Source: Candidatus Schekmanbacteria bacterium GWA2_38_11 (lineage in GTDB: Bacteria; Schekmanbacteria; GWA2-38-11). From it: 7,152 bases of DNA. Position 1 is the stretch's first letter, and each line of letters begins with the position of its first letter. The position numbers and the translations under genes were made by a program. Below the pieces are notes generated by a model, which did no database searches, had not been told where the DNA came from, and saw nothing but the letters and a program-made list of their open reading frames with translations. Below, one piece after another: positions 1 through 7,152 of the stretch. The stretch lies in contig MGDB01000106.1 in NCBI GenBank assembly GCA_001790645.1, positions 11,266 through 18,417 on the forward strand. Direction: 5' to 3'.

Positions 1-581
1 TTAAATGTTGCATTACCTTTATCATGGCATGTGAGGCACAGAACAGTATCAGCTTTTACAAGAAGGTTGTTTTCATCAGAGCTGTGGGAAAAATGGCATT
101 TCATGCAGCCATCAGATTGCATTGTCTTATGAATTATATTTTTTTCATATTTTTCTTTCTTATGGCATTGATAGCAGACTTCACTCCCCTCTGACTTAAG
201 AAGATGTTTTGCCTGGGAGGCATGAGGATTATGACAAAGCGTACATTTCCCCTCCTTCAGTGCCGTATGCACCTTAGATTTATTCATTCCTATCTTTTCT
301 TTGTTATGGCACTGAAAGCATATCTCATTCTCGCTCTTTTTCAGAATTAAAGCAGGAATTCTTCCGTGTCTGAGATGGCACTCCTCACATTTTTCTTCTT
401 TCACAACAGGATGAACTTCCTTCATGTTCAAATATTTATCAGAAAAACTTTTATGGCAGTCCAGACACCCTTTAGTTTTAAATTTCCTTTGTGCTGCAAA
501 AGTTTCATATGTAACATAAAGAACCAATCCACATAAAATTAATATAATCCCAAATATGATTTTTTTACCTTTTGTTTGCAT
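1..581 (-). CDS. Multihaem c-type cytochrome, doubled-CXXCH type (3' end cut by window)
   Basis: Read directly from the minus strand: 193 codons are open from ATG at 581-579 to the window edge, with no stop, so the C-terminus is missing. The N-terminus MQTKGKKIIF is followed by a hydrophobic stretch (about residues 8-25) and a possible cleavage site near A29-A30, or it stays as a membrane anchor. Seven CXXCH haem sites are visible at residues 39-43, 65-69, 88-92, 113-117, 136-140, 159-163 and 182-186. They are spaced 23-26 residues apart, with the 'H-x(n)-C-x-x-C-H-x-P/S-H-(A/S)-S' pattern of doubled-CXXCH cytochromes. Extra histidines (for example H57, H72, H105, H120, H151, H166) could be distal ligands for bis-His haems. 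The likely role is periplasmic or membrane-associated electron transfer. It starts 29 nt after the SurA-like gene and is probably co-transcribed with it. The ATG at 588 was rejected because that frame stops after seven codons. Family assignment is firm; the specific partner is inferred. Confidence 0.9.
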   Translation of the reverse strand, partial: MQTKGKKIIFGIILILCGLVLYVTYETFAAQRKFKTKGCLDCHKSFSDKYLNMKEVHPVVKEEKCEECHLRHGRIPALILKKSENEICFQCHNKEKIGMNKSKVHTALKEGKCTLCHNPHASQAKHLLKSEGSEVCYQCHKKEKYEKNIIHKTMQSDGCMKCHFSHSSDENNLLVKADTVLCLTCHDKGNATF

Positions 582-610: not shown

Positions 611-2362
611 TTATTTGTTATTATAATCTATCGCATAGATTCTTATGGTAGAGTCTTTTCTAAGTTTATCAGTCCAGTCATCAACTGCTTTGCCAAGTTT
701 ATTTTTTAATACCTTGTCATAAATCAAATCTTTTGCATCTTCAAAGGGCTGCGGTTTTGAAGGTATCATATCTTTTATATACAGGATATAATAATATTTT
801 TCAGGACTTACATACATCCTCAAATCCCCTGAACCTGCACCTGCTACTGCTCTCTGTACATCTTCAGATAATTCACTTGTAACAACAGGAGCGTTTCCAA
901 AACCTAAAAGCCCTTCAGTACTTCCATCTACCTGTCCATCTGCATTTTCTTTTATAAAACTAAATTCTGCCCCTTTTTTAAGTTTATCAAGAGAAGATTC
1001 CGCATCTTGAATTTTTTTAAAAACAATGGTATCTATCTTCATCATCTGCGGAAAAGAAAATTCACTTATATGTTCATCATAGTATGCCTTAAGTTCCTCA
1101 TCTTTAAGCTTTACATTAGGAGCAATAACCTTCCGCATAAATAATCCAAAAAGCACAGATATTTCATATTCATTAATCATGCTTTTATATTCTTCTGTTT
1201 TATCAATGCCCTTTTTCAATGCCTCTAATCTAAAAATCTTTTTACCCAATATTTTCTGCAATATATCTATTTTTTTCTGATTGATTTTTTTATTTTTAAT
1301 CGCTTCATCTACTCCATGGAAAAATTCTTTCTTAATGGCTTCAGCCCATTCTTCTACTGTTACCGGTTTTCCGCCTTTAACCTCAGCAACAACCCTTTTA
1401 TCTTTTAATAGATTTTGAAATCCTGGCTGCTTAGATTCAAAATTTATGGTGTCAATAATTTTCTTATTCAATTTTATATATTTATTGGATAACTCTCTGT
1501 TATAATTTGATAAAGCTTTAAACCTTTCTATTTCAAGAACCTTATCCCTTGCTTCATCCTTTACATCTGGATTGTCAGGGTATCGCACATCATCAAGCCT
1601 AAAAACAATATAACCCGAGTCAACAGAAATAACAGGACTTATAGAACCAGCATTCATATCAGATAAAGTCTTTATTATTTGGGGCAGAAGGTCTTTATCC
1701 TTTAAATAAACCCCTTCTTTTTTCCCTTTTACTTTTCCCTCTGTAATCAAACTCTCTATTCTTTCATCAAAGTTACCACCTGCCTTTATCTCTTCTTCAA
1801 ATTTTTTAGCGTCATCTTCTTTATCAAACAACACAGATTTTATCTTCCACTCCTTAACCATCTGCTTATATAGCTTATCTACCTCAGCCTCATCTGCCTT
1901 CAAATCCTTAACATATTGACCCTGTAACAGCGAAAGCAGGGTTGACTTAGCATATTTGTCAACCATGTTTTTCACTTCCTCCAACTCGTCAAACCCCATA
2001 TTTTTTGCCTCTTGTACAATAAGCTTTGTGTTTATAAGCCGCTTTATAATCTCAGAATAATCTTTTCTTGATGATGTCTCTTTTTTCTCCACCCCACCAT
2101 GTAATCTCCCGACAGCTTTTTTTAAGTCTTCAATGGTTATTGGTTCATCATTAACAATAGCAATAGGAAAGATTGAAAAGGAGGGTGAAGAAATCGGAAC
2201 ATTTAGGGCAATTTGTTCTTCTCCGTTATCCCAACCATTTTCTTTGACCTTCTCATCTGATTTGGCAACTTTCTCATCAGATGCATACCCTGGCATTGCA
2301 ACAAACAAAAAAATTAGGGAAATAATCCCATAAGCTAAAAAAAACTGTTTAGTAGTTTTCAT
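611..2362 (-). CDS. SurA/PpiD-like periplasmic chaperone with two degenerate parvulin modules
   Basis: 583 aa. A Sec signal peptide is visible (about residues 1-27, ending GYA|SD). Two SurA-like modules follow. Module A has an N-terminal helical chaperone region (about 66-165, with the family opening 'AIVNDEPITIEDL' and 'LINTKLIVQEA') and a parvulin-like domain (about 172-260, ending in the typical 'SGYIVFRLDDVR'). Module B has a helical region (about 323-430) and a second parvulin-like domain (about 438-532, with 'GLLGFGNAP' and 'YYYILYIKDM'). A helix follows (about 538-575). SurA and PpiD family proteins bind unfolded outer-membrane or secreted proteins in the periplasm. Neither rotamase domain contains any histidine, so the two conserved active-site histidines of parvulins are missing and the protein is more likely a chaperone than an isomerase. 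AGGG lies about 9 nt before the ATG. The gene is 67 nt downstream of the two-domain TolB-N/CsgG-like gene and 29 nt before the cytochrome gene, so it probably serves cytochrome export or assembly (inference). Confidence 0.85.
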   Translation of the reverse strand: MKTTKQFFLAYGIISLIFLFVAMPGYASDEKVAKSDEKVKENGWDNGEEQIALNVPISSPSFSIFPIAIVNDEPITIEDLKKAVGRLHGGVEKKETSSRKDYSEIIKRLINTKLIVQEAKNMGFDELEEVKNMVDKYAKSTLLSLLQGQYVKDLKADEAEVDKLYKQMVKEWKIKSVLFDKEDDAKKFEEEIKAGGNFDERIESLITEGKVKGKKEGVYLKDKDLLPQIIKTLSDMNAGSISPVISVDSGYIVFRLDDVRYPDNPDVKDEARDKVLEIERFKALSNYNRELSNKYIKLNKKIIDTINFESKQPGFQNLLKDKRVVAEVKGGKPVTVEEWAEAIKKEFFHGVDEAIKNKKINQKKIDILQKILGKKIFRLEALKKGIDKTEEYKSMINEYEISVLFGLFMRKVIAPNVKLKDEELKAYYDEHISEFSFPQMMKIDTIVFKKIQDAESSLDKLKKGAEFSFIKENADGQVDGSTEGLLGFGNAPVVTSELSEDVQRAVAGAGSGDLRMYVSPEKYYYILYIKDMIPSKPQPFEDAKDLIYDKVLKNKLGKAVDDWTDKLRKDSTIRIYAIDYNNK

Positions 2363-2429: not shown

Positions 2430-3557
2430 TTATTGTTTTACCATAGACTCTACAGCAATCCGAACCATCTCAGATGCCATAACACTGGCTGTATTCACCT
2501 TCCCCCAGTCAAATAAAAAAACCCTGTCATCCCCTTCATTAAAACTCTTTGACCTCCATACTATTTTCCTTTCCATTTTGCTTAATAACTGTGCAGAAAA
2601 ATCTACTTTTGCTTTACCAAAAAACCCTATATAATCATCATAGCTCATGATTCTTCCGCTCAGCATAAGATCAGCATTTAAATCGCTAAGAATCAGATCC
2701 GCATCTGAGAGTGAAATCCCAACATTCATTATGAGTCTCATTTTAAGAAGTTCCTGCCTTATTATACCTGGCTCAATTATATTATAATTTTTCTGTTTCA
2801 TCATTTGCATAACAAAGTGTAACATAATTATCTCTCCTGCATTTTTCCTTGTGCTGTCATTAAAAAAGGGTATTACTGCAACAGTGTACCTATTATCAGG
2901 ACTTAAAAATGGTATATTATAAAATACTTTTGGATTGAATATTTTTTTACTTTTTTTAACACCAGCCATTTCGATATTTCCGGCAAGATATCTTCTGAGA
3001 GAGGCAGCAAGAGATTCAGTGGCTTTTTCCATAAGCAAATGAGGATCTTCTATCAGTCCTAAACCAAGAATCCCGGGTAAGTCATCACCGCTTAATCCAA
3101 CGCTATCCATCCACAAAATCACCGGATTGCTACCGGTTGAAACCAACCGACAAATTAATGCAATCTTTGATGGATCTGTTTCATTATACAGTTCCACTGA
3201 AGTGATTAGAACAGCGTCAACGCCTATCTCTTTCTTAAATGCCTCGGCTGTTGCTGCGTCTATACCCCCTGTATATCGTACCCTATTTCGTGCCATGAAC
3301 TTTTCAAGTTCTTCATTTTCAAAAATAGATAGTCCATGTATTTTAAAGTTTTTTATTAATGATTCCTTTATGTCTTTTATTGGTGCAGCTGTTCCGCTAA
3401 GGTTTTCTATTGGAAGGACAACAATGCGTAAATCTTGTTTAAAATCTTGAAAATTCTCAGATAAGTTTTTTTTTACAAGAACACATTCTGAAAGACAAAA
3501 AATACCTACCAATAAAATAGCAGCTAACTTACTTAAAAAGTTTATCGAGAAGATCAT
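2430..3557 (-). CDS. Exported protein with two tandem TolB-N/CsgG-like domains
   Basis: 375 aa. The N-terminus (residues 1-25) is hydrophobic and looks like a signal peptide. Cysteines occur at 21 and 25, and 'LSEC' resembles a lipobox but has Glu at -1, which is unusual, so lipidation is uncertain. Two related halves can be seen. Residues about 42-190 open with 'LRIVVLPIENLSG', and about 222-373 open with 'YTVAVIPFFNDST'. Each has a beta-strand 'VxxxPxxNxS' motif, a following helix, an 'xIxExxxLxxxM' segment, an 'AD(A/L)xLxx' strand (115-119 and 295-300) and a 'vxxxxxxxIxW' strand ending in Trp (149 and 334). This is the architecture of the CsgG/LpoB/TolB-N-like fold found in outer-membrane lipoproteins. 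The start overlaps the upstream lipoprotein gene by 29 bp, indicating translational coupling. A role at the outer membrane in export or assembly of the neighbouring cytochrome is inferred; no specific family name is claimed. Confidence 0.7.
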   Translation of the reverse strand: MIFSINFLSKLAAILLVGIFCLSECVLVKKNLSENFQDFKQDLRIVVLPIENLSGTAAPIKDIKESLIKNFKIHGLSIFENEELEKFMARNRVRYTGGIDAATAEAFKKEIGVDAVLITSVELYNETDPSKIALICRLVSTGSNPVILWMDSVGLSGDDLPGILGLGLIEDPHLLMEKATESLAASLRRYLAGNIEMAGVKKSKKIFNPKVFYNIPFLSPDNRYTVAVIPFFNDSTRKNAGEIIMLHFVMQMMKQKNYNIIEPGIIRQELLKMRLIMNVGISLSDADLILSDLNADLMLSGRIMSYDDYIGFFGKAKVDFSAQLLSKMERKIVWRSKSFNEGDDRVFLFDWGKVNTASVMASEMVRIAVESMVKQ

Positions 3558-4107
3558 TTACAGCCTTTACAGTAACAGTATTCATCGGTTCACCACCACC
3601 GCCAAAGAGGCGGTCTTTGATTCCTATCCCGCCTTTGGTTGAAGATGCAGACCATACAATCCGTCCTGTCTGTCCCTCTATCATCTGCACGCTTAAAGAA
3701 ATTATATTAGCAGAGGTAGTGCCTGACCTTAACTCTCCATATTCCTTTACAACTCCTGTAATCACAGCATTTGCCTTAATTGCATTAGTCAATTTGATAA
3801 CTTCTTCTCCTGTTGGAGCTGTCGGGTTTAAGACTCCGGTAGTAGCTATTCCCTTTGCAACCTCGCCAGGAGGTATTACATAAATACTCCCTGTTGACAA
3901 AAGCATAGTAATGAATACATCTCTAACCCTTTCAGAAGATGTTTGTTCTTTTGAAAAATTTGCAAAAGGCATAACCGCAACAGTTTGTATTGACCCAAAA
4001 TCCATAGTGGAATCCCTGTATACATCACTAGCACACCCAAATAAAAAGGCTACAATCAGAGATGCTAAAATTATCTTTTTAAAATTTATAATTCTCTCTT
4101 CTGCCAT
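3529..4107 (-). CDS. CsgG/TolB-N-like outer-membrane lipoprotein
   Basis: 192 aa. A lipoprotein signal is visible: basic N-terminus with FKK, hydrophobic core at about 12-23, and lipobox 'LFGC' with Cys25. The residues after the cysteine are Ala-Ser, with no Asp at +2, which favours the outer membrane. The mature part (about 168 aa) opens with 'TVAVMPFANFS' (42-52), then has an 'SIYVIPPGEVAKGI' segment, an 'AIKANAVITGVVKEYG' strand-turn (109-124), and 'TGRIVWSASSTKGG' (147-160). It ends with a Gly-rich turn (168-172) before a C-terminal helix. This pattern matches small CsgG-like or GNA1162-like lipoproteins, whose exact function is mostly unknown. It is the first gene of the unit downstream of the cytochrome terminator and overlaps the next gene by 29 bp. 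No good Shine-Dalgarno precedes ATG 4107, so that start is tentative, but the lipobox position supports it. It pairs naturally with the following two-domain paralogue. Confidence 0.8.
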   Translation of the reverse strand: MAEERIINFKKIILASLIVAFLFGCASDVYRDSTMDFGSIQTVAVMPFANFSKEQTSSERVRDVFITMLLSTGSIYVIPPGEVAKGIATTGVLNPTAPTGEEVIKLTNAIKANAVITGVVKEYGELRSGTTSANIISLSVQMIEGQTGRIVWSASSTKGGIGIKDRLFGGGGEPMNTVTVKAVNDLLDKLFK

Positions 4108-4226: not shown

Positions 4227-4229
4227 GAT

Positions 4230-4262
4230 AAAAAGGCTGGTTTTTTTTAAACCAGCCTTTTT
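4230..4262 (-). terminator. Intrinsic terminator of the OmcS-like cytochrome gene
   Basis: A perfect 14-bp inverted repeat (4230-4243 with 4249-4262) encloses a 5-nt loop. The core is GGCTGG/CCAGCC, flanked by A-runs and T-runs, so on the minus strand the hairpin ends in a U-tract. It starts 35 nt after the cytochrome stop codon. Because of the symmetric A/T flanks it could also stop transcription from the other direction, although no plus-strand gene is seen here. It makes the cytochrome gene a separate transcript, or at least strongly lowers read-through into the accessory genes. Confidence 0.93.
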
Positions 4263-4297
4263 ATATCCTGAGCGTGTCTTTATATGCTCTTAGTATA

Positions 4298-5557
4298 TTA
4301 ATCCATATTATGGCACTTATTGCATAAAATCCTCTGATAAGAAGCAAAAATAGTCGCAGGCCTATCATAGTATGCTGCCTGTGTTTCTGCCCCTAAACGC
4401 CCTAAAGAAAATTCTGGGTTATCCGGTGTTGTATCAGTCCCTGGCCAGAGGCTATTGTAGACAATAAAATCTACCTCATTACTCCATCTAAACATATGGT
4501 TCCATCCTGTTGCATGTGCCCTGTGGCAACTTAAGCACATTACCTGAGAGTTGGAGGCAGGACCTGAAAGCGGAGAACTACCGCTTTTCCCTGCTATTGT
4601 TTTGAGACTTGAATAATCAGTAGAATTCTCTTCATATGGCACCAATGAAAGGTATGAACTTGCCTGGACACCTGTCGTGTCCCCAGATTTAACATAGGAA
4701 TTATAATTATTAGCTAAGGACGAGCCAAAAGTCCGATCGCAAGGATGAAGTAACTTACCTGTATCACTATGCATATCAGAATGGCAGTTTGCACACCATC
4801 TTGACATACCTTTTCCATAGGCAACATAGGTCTGGGTAGAAGACTCTGATCTGTTGTAATTAGATGGTGCCACTGCTGTTGGTGGATTTACCGTAAACGA
4901 AACATTGCTGGTTTTAGAATTGGTAAAGCCAATACCACCAAGAAGCCTGTAAACACCTACAGCTGTTTCACCTGCTACAGGGTCAGGGCTATTATCGTAA
5001 GAGCCTGATGCCATAATAGGTGCACCTTTTGTAATAATTGTTCCATCCCCGAGTCTTCTATATTTCCCATGGGGATCATGACAGCTGATACAAGAAAAAT
5101 CTGATGAAACAAATGATCCTCCAGGGGCTGTATTGTTTGTATTATCTGCTACATAATTTTTATCAACTGCAACTATGTTGTGTCCGTGTCTTTCCCCTGA
5201 CTCAATAGTTGTAACATTGCCAATTGTAATAGTGTAGCTCTTCTTCAGCCAGCCAAAATCTCCGCCAGGGGTTCGCTGTTTGGGTGGAACACTTGTTGGC
5301 ATATCAGAATCAGCAGTGCTAATATGATAGTCGGTTGGACCTGTGTCGCCTGAGTTTTCATGGCAAATCAGGCATGTTGAACTCTGGTCCGTTCCTTTCA
5401 AGCAATAGTCACCATCTGATGGTGTTGAATGCATGCTATGGCATCCTGTGCATTCCCCTACACCGCCATTATGAAACGCATAGCTTTTTCCACAAAGCAG
5501 AATAATTAAAAAAGGCAATATAAAAACAAATAAACTTACCATTTTTAAAATCTTCAT
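4298..5557 (-). CDS. omcS: OmcS-like hexahaem extracellular cytochrome (nanowire filament subunit)
   Basis: 419 aa from ATG 5557. The in-frame GTG at 5575 was rejected because AAAGGAGGGAAG sits directly before this ATG and would be inside the longer reading frame. The signal peptide is residues 1-27 (...KSYA|FHNGG), leaving a mature protein of 392 aa, close to Geobacter sulfurreducens OmcS (about 407). There are exactly six CXXCH sites, at mature positions 9-13, 35-39, 129-133, 228-232, 314-318 and 385-389. Blocks I recognise from OmcS include FHxGGVxECxGCHxMH, GDTGPxxYHISTA, TPGGDFGW, GHNIV, CHDPHGKYRR, NYNR, WCANCH, CLSCHRAHA and the C-terminal LCNKCH. His16 is at the same position as the OmcS histidine that ligates a haem in the next subunit. 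The family forms micrometre-long extracellular filaments carrying electrons to minerals or partner cells. Two cysteines, at mature 25 and 246, are not in haem motifs. The upstream sigma-54 promoter and downstream terminator suggest monocistronic, regulated expression. Confidence 0.93.
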   Translation of the reverse strand: MKILKMVSLFVFILPFLIILLCGKSYAFHNGGVGECTGCHSMHSTPSDGDYCLKGTDQSSTCLICHENSGDTGPTDYHISTADSDMPTSVPPKQRTPGGDFGWLKKSYTITIGNVTTIESGERHGHNIVAVDKNYVADNTNNTAPGGSFVSSDFSCISCHDPHGKYRRLGDGTIITKGAPIMASGSYDNSPDPVAGETAVGVYRLLGGIGFTNSKTSNVSFTVNPPTAVAPSNYNRSESSTQTYVAYGKGMSRWCANCHSDMHSDTGKLLHPCDRTFGSSLANNYNSYVKSGDTTGVQASSYLSLVPYEENSTDYSSLKTIAGKSGSSPLSGPASNSQVMCLSCHRAHATGWNHMFRWSNEVDFIVYNSLWPGTDTTPDNPEFSLGRLGAETQAAYYDRPATIFASYQRILCNKCHNMD

Positions 5558-6147: not shown

Positions 6148-7152
6148 TCATTTTCCCTGGATGGCTTTAAGGTTATTGACTATTTGAAGTTCTCTGGTTT
6201 CCTCTTCAAAACGTCCAAGCTTATTATAAATTATTCCCATGTTGAAATGTGCCCCTATATCTTCTGGCTTAGCCCTTATAACAGCCTGAAATTCTTTTAA
6301 GGCTTCAATGAATTTTCCCTCTCTTCCGTAAATTGCCCCCAAGTTATTATGCGCTTCAACAAAATCAGGTTTAAGCCTTATTGCAGTCCGGTATTTTTCT
6401 ACTGCTTCCTCAAAAAAACCAAGCTTCCGGTAAACCTCCCCTAAGTTATAATAAGCGCTGGCATCACCGGGATTAAGTTTTATAGCAGTCTGAAATTCTT
6501 TAATCGCTTCTTCAAAACGGTTCTGTATTTCATAAATCAAGCCAAGGTTGTAATGGGGCACAGCATATTCAGAAGAAAGTTTTATAGCAGTTTCTAATTC
6601 CTCTATTGCTTCTTTAAAGCGGCCCTGCCTCCCGTAAATGTTGCCAAGGTTGTAATGTGCCACAGGATAAAAGGAGTCAAGCCTTACAGCAGTCTGAAAT
6701 TCCGTAATCGCTTCTTCAAAACGGTTCTTCCTTCCATATACAACTCCAAGGTTACTGTGTGTGCGGGCTATTAAAGGACTCTTCTTTACCACATCTTCCC
6801 AGAACCTGATTTCATCCCCCCAGATATTATTTCTCGCATATGTTGCAATTGAGAGGACAAGCACTGCTATCACCAAGGCTGGTATAATCACATAACCTGC
6901 TCTTAATTCCCTGTTCTCTAATTTGTCCTTAACCATAATAATAAAAGTAACCATAGCAATGAAAAAACCTACAGATGGCAAATATACCCTGTGTTCATAG
7001 ATTACATCTGCAATGGGAATCACGCTGGATTCAACCGAGAGTGTTATAAAAAACCAGAAAGTGCCAAAGGCTATGAGACGGTTGCCTGAGTCATTGCCTC
7101 TGCGCGACTTCACAAACAGGAATATTGATGTGCAAAAAATACACAGGAGAAC
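6148..7152 (-). CDS. TMTC-like membrane protein with C-terminal TPR array (5' end cut by window)
   Basis: The reading frame is open to the window edge. A GTG at 7113 could start a shorter frame, but the upstream codons encode another hydrophobic segment (VLLCIFCTSIFLF), so the true start lies outside; 334 residues are visible. Numbering from the edge, membrane segments lie at about 1-13, 26-48, 63-74 and 86-105. They enclose the motif 'EHRVYLP' (53-59) and are followed by 'RNNIWGD' and 'FWED'. These are landmarks of large bacterial membrane proteins related to TMTC/O-mannosyltransferase-like (GT-C) enzymes that carry TPRs. Six TPR units of 34 residues follow (about 129-332) with the usual 'AHYNLGxIYxxxGRFEEAIxEFxxAIKL' pattern spread over each unit. 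The visible part is the tail of the membrane domain plus the TPR domain, so the catalytic centre cannot be judged. Its link to the cytochrome genes is unclear: it ends 590 bp upstream and has no visible terminator. Confidence 0.85.
   Translation of the reverse strand, partial: VLLCIFCTSIFLFVKSRRGNDSGNRLIAFGTFWFFITLSVESSVIPIADVIYEHRVYLPSVGFFIAMVTFIIMVKDKLENRELRAGYVIIPALVIAVLVLSIATYARNNIWGDEIRFWEDVVKKSPLIARTHSNLGVVYGRKNRFEEAITEFQTAVRLDSFYPVAHYNLGNIYGRQGRFKEAIEELETAIKLSSEYAVPHYNLGLIYEIQNRFEEAIKEFQTAIKLNPGDASAYYNLGEVYRKLGFFEEAVEKYRTAIRLKPDFVEAHNNLGAIYGREGKFIEALKEFQAVIRAKPEDIGAHFNMGIIYNKLGRFEEETRELQIVNNLKAIQGK
6484..6728 (-). repeat. Near-identical DNA segments in two TPR units
   Basis: The 41-nt segments 6484-6524 and 6688-6728 differ at only two positions. 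They are 204 bp apart, exactly two 102-bp TPR units, while the intervening unit is clearly more diverged. This points to a recent duplication or gene conversion inside the TPR array. Confidence 0.75.

Follow-up and report, generated by a model that had tools for sequence, protein, structure and literature searches.

A predicted OmcS-family wire cytochrome beside osc-type assembly genes in Candidatus Schekmanbacteria

Does the locus described here encode the subunit of an extracellular cytochrome wire, and is the apparatus for its assembly encoded with it? The stretch in question, called the window below, comprises 7,152 nucleotides of Candidatus Schekmanbacteria bacterium GWA2_38_11 (contig MGDB01000106.1, positions 11,266 to 18,417), and a gene located at 4298-5557 had been described in a sequence-only reading as coding for an OmcS-type nanowire cytochrome. 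In our analysis the protein was predicted, with a probability of roughly 0.7, to assemble head to tail as an extracellular filament that carries electrons, its gene lying beside osc-type assembly genes. Filaments of this kind are already described in other bacteria. The evidence consists of six haem motifs, 12 ligand histidines recognised by conservation, the OmcS fold of a monomer model, a signal peptide and an osc-type gene set on one contig. The features of the gene are as follows (papers are cited by PMC number).

4298-5557, minus strand: OmcS-family hexahaem cytochrome c, predicted wire subunit (419 amino acids, mature form 392; phmmer match to PDB 6ef8, E = 3.4e-120; fold search 6ef8_A)
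5477-5557, minus strand: signal peptide of 27 amino acids, predicted cut before FHNGG (by eye and by alignment to mature OmcS)
5438-5452, minus strand: haem motif 1, CTGCH
5429-5431, minus strand: codon of His16, equivalent of the OmcS ligand to the neighbour's haem 5 (role in OmcS: PMC13319180)
5402-5404, minus strand: codon of the non-haem Cys25 (OmcS position 37)
5360-5374, minus strand: haem motif 2, CLICH
5078-5092, minus strand: haem motif 3, CISCH
4781-4795, minus strand: haem motif 4, CANCH
4739-4741, minus strand: codon of the non-haem Cys246 (OmcS position 259)
4523-4537, minus strand: haem motif 5, CLSCH
4310-4324, minus strand: haem motif 6, CNKCH

The open reading frame (ORF) begins with an ATG at 5557 with a GGAGG ribosome-binding site immediately 5' of it, and the mature protein starts with FHNGG. 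Its CXXCH motifs start at mature positions 9, 35, 129, 228, 314 and 385 (9, 47, 140, 239, 328 and 400 in OmcS). All six could be counted, in the order claimed for them, while the claimed OmcS-like spacing holds overall but not in the loop between haems 1 and 2, which is 12 residues shorter. When the protein's own residues were shuffled 20,000 times, no shuffle contained more than two CXXCH, against the six real ones. The long OmcS-like stretches noticed earlier were borne out by the identity of 207 of 389 aligned positions (53%). OmcS was the sole match in the PDB sequence search (E 0.001) and, when the monomer model was used (mean predicted local distance difference test score, pLDDT, of 65), the sole significant match in the fold search as well (6ef8_A), thus the best match was not to a non-filament family.

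The protein search scored at least 3,949 relatives among at least 7,999 candidates; the best 120 of the 3,949 were listed, and 13 of these entered the tree and the ligand count, 54 the structure alignment and all 120 the cysteine count. From the scan of genome contigs the best 80 of 85 relatives gave 75 distinct loci, whose titles named Nitrospirota, Acidobacteriota, Rokubacteria, Geobacter-type and other former Deltaproteobacteria; OmcS relatives had already been reported in diverse bacteria (PMC10954620) and in Desulfurivibrio (PMC12545173). Before the counts, five hexahaem ORFs were dropped because they had fewer than five CXXCH. A further hexahaem relative (L028 7689-9074) has its second haem motif stretched to CX6CH, so that five standard CXXCH were counted in it.

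Two trees set the window protein apart from OmcS; in the second of them it was placed in a group of 12 (support 100/99) inside a set of 39 rows. Since this set is separate from OmcS at 100/98, the cytochrome is, judged by its sequence, a member of the OmcS family and not an OmcS orthologue; the earlier term OmcS-type stands for the family and fails for orthology. With OmcS itself (GSU2504 of Geobacter sulfurreducens, PDB 6ef8/6nef) it shares the order of the six motifs, the 12 ligand positions, His16, the N-terminal FH and the fold, whereas OmcS has 12 more residues between haems 1 and 2, lacks two extra cysteines of the window protein and belongs to its own tree group. Filaments of OmcS are proven, while the window protein is known here from its sequence and a monomer model. 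OmcE and OmcZ wires can be excluded, having four or eight haems per subunit (PMC9473688) against six here. The window protein was found in neither of the tree groups that hold OscC-type proteins of Geobacter, which correspond to clades 3A and 3B (PMC12977616). Proteins of the OscC (GSU2501) type likewise adjoin assembly genes and carry His16, but the window gene precedes that of a GNA1162-like lipoprotein (GNA), not a beta-propeller gene. Gene exchange was also considered, as the machinery tree joins the window with G002, a related genome from the same order, and the cytochrome tree separates them; since their joint placement was not rejected (approximately unbiased test, p 0.214), exchange is not claimed.

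The ligand alignment consisted of 115 hexahaem rows (the window protein, its paralogue, OmcS, 99 other ORFs of the fetched loci and 13 protein hits). Histidine occupied OmcS positions 2, 110, 147, 257 and 335 in all rows or all but one; positions 63 (78 rows) and 247 (82 rows) were variable, leaving 11 ligands without His16. The latter was present in 107 of the 114 rows having a letter there. In the window protein all twelve positions, located by conservation, are kept, and His16, whose conservation had been claimed, is in register with OmcS. The conserved pattern equals the one reported for OmcS, in which the chain itself supplies eleven ligands and the neighbouring subunit the twelfth, to haem 5 (PMC6584659), the latter being named as His-16 on haem V (PMC13319180). 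No list of histidine-to-haem pairs was found among the literature matches listed. From the alignment we infer that the histidine three residues past each of motifs 1, 3 and 5 is the ligand of the haem two positions earlier, a rule which fits His16 serving haem 5 of the neighbour; His257 would serve haem 6, which enters only the disulfide reading discussed below. As a mark of filaments, His16 is indeed present, but it occurs also in groups never shown to form wires, among them the OscC-type tree groups (8 of 8 and 21 of 22 rows). Thus, as far as the sequences go, it looks necessary for a wire, yet it is not diagnostic.

The seven rows that lack this histidine are the best evidence here, at the level of sequence, that His16 has a separate function.

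His16-less hexahaem relatives: L044 9941-11263, L067 9878-11272, L060 9785-11242, L075 9914-11215, L030 517-1752, L058 431-1672, L040 612-1835

The other eleven ligands are kept in all seven of them (and in 106 of the 107 His16 rows). Among the His16 rows, 88 columns show conservation of 90% or more, and on average each of these is kept by 6.3 of the seven. Besides column 16, which was the selection criterion, only column 37 was lost in all seven. They are spread over several branches of the tree. By an adjacency rule, one of the seven occupies an osc-like position; among the His16 rows, 93 could be classified, and 76 of these do. This suggests that these relatives have given up polymerisation.

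The osc assembly genes, which make up most of the remaining window, are the strongest added support for the reading of the gene as a wire subunit.

3529-4107, minus strand: GNA1162-like lipoprotein, OscF-type by position (PF05643, 7e-7; followed by a relative of LP375 in 45 of 48 places)
2430-3557, minus strand: lipoprotein of 375 residues with two PelC/CsgG/GNA1162-type domains (LP375), OscG-type by position
611-2362, minus strand: SurA/PpiC-type peptidyl-prolyl isomerase, OscH-type (PF13145, 1.1e-29; cluster position)
1-581, minus strand: start of a large multihaem cytochrome, OscI-type, 7 CXXCH within the window
4228-4264, minus strand: terminator-like hairpin of 16 pairs with a T-rich tail, between the cytochrome and GNA genes (fold z -6.87)

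In G. sulfurreducens oscC is GSU2501, oscI GSU2495 and oscJ GSU2494; OscD has been linked with morphology, OscE, F and G with secretion and OscH with folding (PMC13194489). The eight-gene block GSU2500-2493 was linked to nanowire maturation and secretion, and 26 haems were given for OscI, GSU2495 (PMC12977616). The usual order in the fetched loci was NHL, hexahaem, propeller, barrel, GNA, LP375, isomerase, OscI, OscJ, and counting along this order would make the propeller OscD, the barrel OscE, GNA OscF, LP375 OscG and the isomerase OscH. Shen et al. (2025) are said to have described a prolyl isomerase OscH, a channel-like OscEFG and a propeller-like OscD. Outside the window, a 16-haem cytochrome (OscJ-type), an outer-membrane-type barrel and a beta-propeller protein are encoded on the same contig. 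The barrel and the two lipoproteins (OscE/F/G type) were assigned by homology to the Geobacter cluster genes, the Pfam match of the barrel being below the cut-off. In the whole OscI-type gene, the reading of which is interrupted by an unread stretch, 25 CXXCH were readable; there are 26 in G002.

The hexahaem, propeller, barrel, GNA, LP375 and isomerase genes occurred together in 36 of 78 loci, many of which were ended by contig ends; since the loci were fetched via the cytochrome, this linkage is not an unbiased count. As in the osc cluster of Geobacter, the propeller, barrel, two lipoproteins, isomerase, OscI and OscJ are all on one contig here, but spermine-synthase-like and tetratricopeptide repeat (TPR) genes lie inside the cluster, the cytochrome has moved beside the lipoprotein genes, and the NHL gene with a second cytochrome is on a separate contig. 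That second OmcS-family gene (contig C144, 68% identical) follows an NHL-repeat gene, the two together spanning L004 3885-6349, and no other osc-type gene was matched around it in the 20 kb read. The canonical order, cytochrome before beta-propeller gene, is absent at the window locus: in the 48 places counted (L060, which overlaps L025, was omitted from this count and from the machinery tree) the gene upstream of GNA was the barrel in 46, a TPR gene in one (G002) and the cytochrome in one, the window. Since the same spermine-synthase-like and TPR-type genes are inserted in G002, where both cytochromes still precede the propeller, the arrangement in the window resembles a locally rearranged form of the cluster type found in its taxonomic order. 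The spermine-synthase domain belongs to a membrane protein of 1,008 residues (L005 982-4008), also present in G002 and near several other osc clusters. Three terminator-like sites were found in the window against 1.2 expected; promoter-like sites (11 against 10.3 expected) were uninformative.

The OscG-type protein deserves separate mention; the prediction for it is a lipoprotein with PelC/CsgG-type domains in tandem. In a fold search with a predicted model each of its halves matched the PelC/GNA1162/CsgG fold superfamily. No Pfam match above cut-off was obtained; the CsgG profile matched 14 of 32 OscG members at E up to 1, the best value being 1.8e-6. The OscG alignment was built after removal of four relatives that were too long or had no start motif; of the 38 left, seven were omitted as near-duplicate, short or divergent. 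The lipoproteins PelC, GNA1162 and CsgG have one such fold unit, while an OscG-type chain would have two; the cargo of PelC and CsgG is polysaccharide or curli subunits, whereas that of OscG would be a cytochrome.

Taken as a working mechanism, the cytochrome chain would be exported to the periplasm, loaded with six haems and helped in its folding by the OscH-type isomerase. The OscE-type barrel, together with a ring of OscF/OscG-type lipoproteins resembling the PelC ring under PelB, would pass it through the outer membrane, where His16 of each subunit would bind haem 5 of its neighbour and give an unbroken haem chain. Because of the hairpin 3' of the cytochrome gene, the wire subunit may be made in larger amounts than the assembly proteins. 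The OscI- and OscJ-type large cytochromes and the b-type cytochromes encoded downstream would feed the wire from the quinol pool. A row of b-type and multihaem cytochrome genes is located downstream of OscJ (L003 3-7735), one of which codes for at least nine CXXCH and a b561-type domain, like CbcL; the row would be a possible quinol-to-wire route on one contig.

Several points weigh against the polymerising wire. According to PMC12977616, only OmcS is proven as a wire and sequence models would lack the resolution to detect wires in other genera, and long-range electron transfer by OmcS filaments is itself disputed (Schwarz et al. 2024, PMC11077965). The window protein belongs to the set separated from OmcS in the tree, and His16 is shared by OscC-type groups. 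The model is a monomer, weak at its N-terminal segment (residues 23-54, pLDDT below 50), and the gene order is unusual, as one of 48 places has the cytochrome immediately ahead of GNA. Forty relative genomes were searched, of which three share the family or order and the others the domain only. Among the three the cytochrome was found only in G002, being absent in G001 (99% complete) and G003 (97%); two distant genomes gave weak matches. Finally, PF01578, a cytochrome c assembly family, had no match in the metagenome-assembled genome (2.11 Mb, 158 contigs), which is 70% complete. Multihaem proteins need haem attachment, which qualifies this last result.

The alternatives were judged against the same data. 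That we are dealing with a generic multihaem cytochrome of some other family, similar by chance or through its haem motifs only, could be argued from the Pfam and NCBIfam scans, which yielded general haem-motif families or sub-threshold matches only, but the whole-chain identity to OmcS and the OmcS fold refute it, and its probability is practically nil. An OmcS-like hexahaem cytochrome might instead act as a non-polymerising, monomeric surface or periplasmic carrier, as perhaps OmcT, OmcJ and OscC do. The position outside the OmcS tree group would agree with this, as would the place adjoining the assembly block, which is that of OscC in Geobacter, listed as periplasmic (PMC13194489); the functions of OmcS relatives in G. 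sulfurreducens are given as not established in PMC12977616. Against it, His16 and all other ligands are kept, and in a protein that never polymerised haem 5 would have a single ligand; the seven His16-less rows suggest that the residue is free to go when it is not needed. Moreover, the genome encodes two such proteins, and the wire could be either. We consider the monomeric carrier unlikely, though it is the rival to be taken most seriously. Improbable in our view is that filaments are formed but serve adhesion, storage of haem or electrons, or an inward flow of electrons, not an outward long-range route. According to PMC11077965, Geobacter deficient in OmcS reduced Fe(III) oxide normally, as did a triple mutant, and the direction of electron flow is not set by any calculation here; the multihaem and b-type cytochrome genes downstream on the contig are nevertheless those expected for respiration from quinol outward, although such chains can reverse.

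The two extra cysteines raise a further question about such a wire. No cysteine beyond CXXCH was found in 208 of 222 hexahaem rows, which include the 120 best of at least 3,949 protein hits (at 95% identity 211 rows remain, 197 of them without a non-haem cysteine), and cysteine at OmcS positions 37 and 259 was seen in the window protein only. Neither is present in the sister P0002, 88% identical to it, and the joint gain of the two cysteines suggests a disulfide. Apart from 16, position 37, occupied here by Cys25, is the only conserved position that none of the His16-less relatives has kept. Provided that haem 6 is served by His257 and that the N-terminal interface segment contains residue 37, the two cysteines would meet between subunits and not inside one, so that Cys25 of one subunit might be stapled to Cys246 of the next at the His16-haem 5 interface. 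Such a disulfide-stapled nanowire is improbable; if it existed, the cytochrome wire would be locked covalently, a property of interest for materials. Another cysteine pair, at OmcS positions 166 and 181, was observed in seven Nitrospirota rows (L023, L024, L029, L032, L035, L041 and L053).

The earlier suggestion, drawn from the AT-rich composition, of a host outside Geobacter was right: it belongs to Candidatus Schekmanbacteria, and the GC content of the window is 35.5%. In its genome RpoB (TIGR02013) had no match, and ribosomal protein L19 was found. The cytochrome gene (41.7%) has the highest GC content among the six window genes for which it was determined, of which two are partial; the second cytochrome gene (L004 5114-6349) has 44.5% and the isomerase gene 33.4%. 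The higher GC of the cytochrome genes may be due to protein composition or to transfer. Eight pilin-type N-methylation sites (PF07963) were found in this genome, on contigs C4, C8, C61, C124 and C135; in Geobacter, pilin was reported to be needed for OmcS export (PMC12307469).

Upstream of the cytochrome gene the window ends in part of another gene.

6148-7152, minus strand: C-terminal portion of a candidate glycosyltransferase, a membrane/TPR protein (L003 17416-19368) showing TMTC-like (GT-C) motifs

TMTC-like motifs (DD and a KE..T-like motif, and EHRVY, ER..Y-like, by eye) and TPRs were seen in it, the reference being the motifs of O-mannosyltransferases (PMC7801869); no Pfam glycosyltransferase was among the best 25 of 27 families. 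Since OmcS filaments are glycosylated (PMC9473688), this protein may glycosylate the wire.

In the literature search no paper joining Schekmanbacteria with cytochromes and extracellular electron transfer was found. New here are the seven relatives lacking His16, the predicted PelC/CsgG-type nature of OscG and the unique cysteine pair. The His16-less relatives could serve as naturally occurring controls for the role of this residue in polymerisation; with OscG read as PelC/CsgG-type, the route of the wire out of the cell becomes directly testable. The analysis thus places a predicted wire subunit of the OmcS family, together with a gene set for its assembly, in a poorly known lineage.
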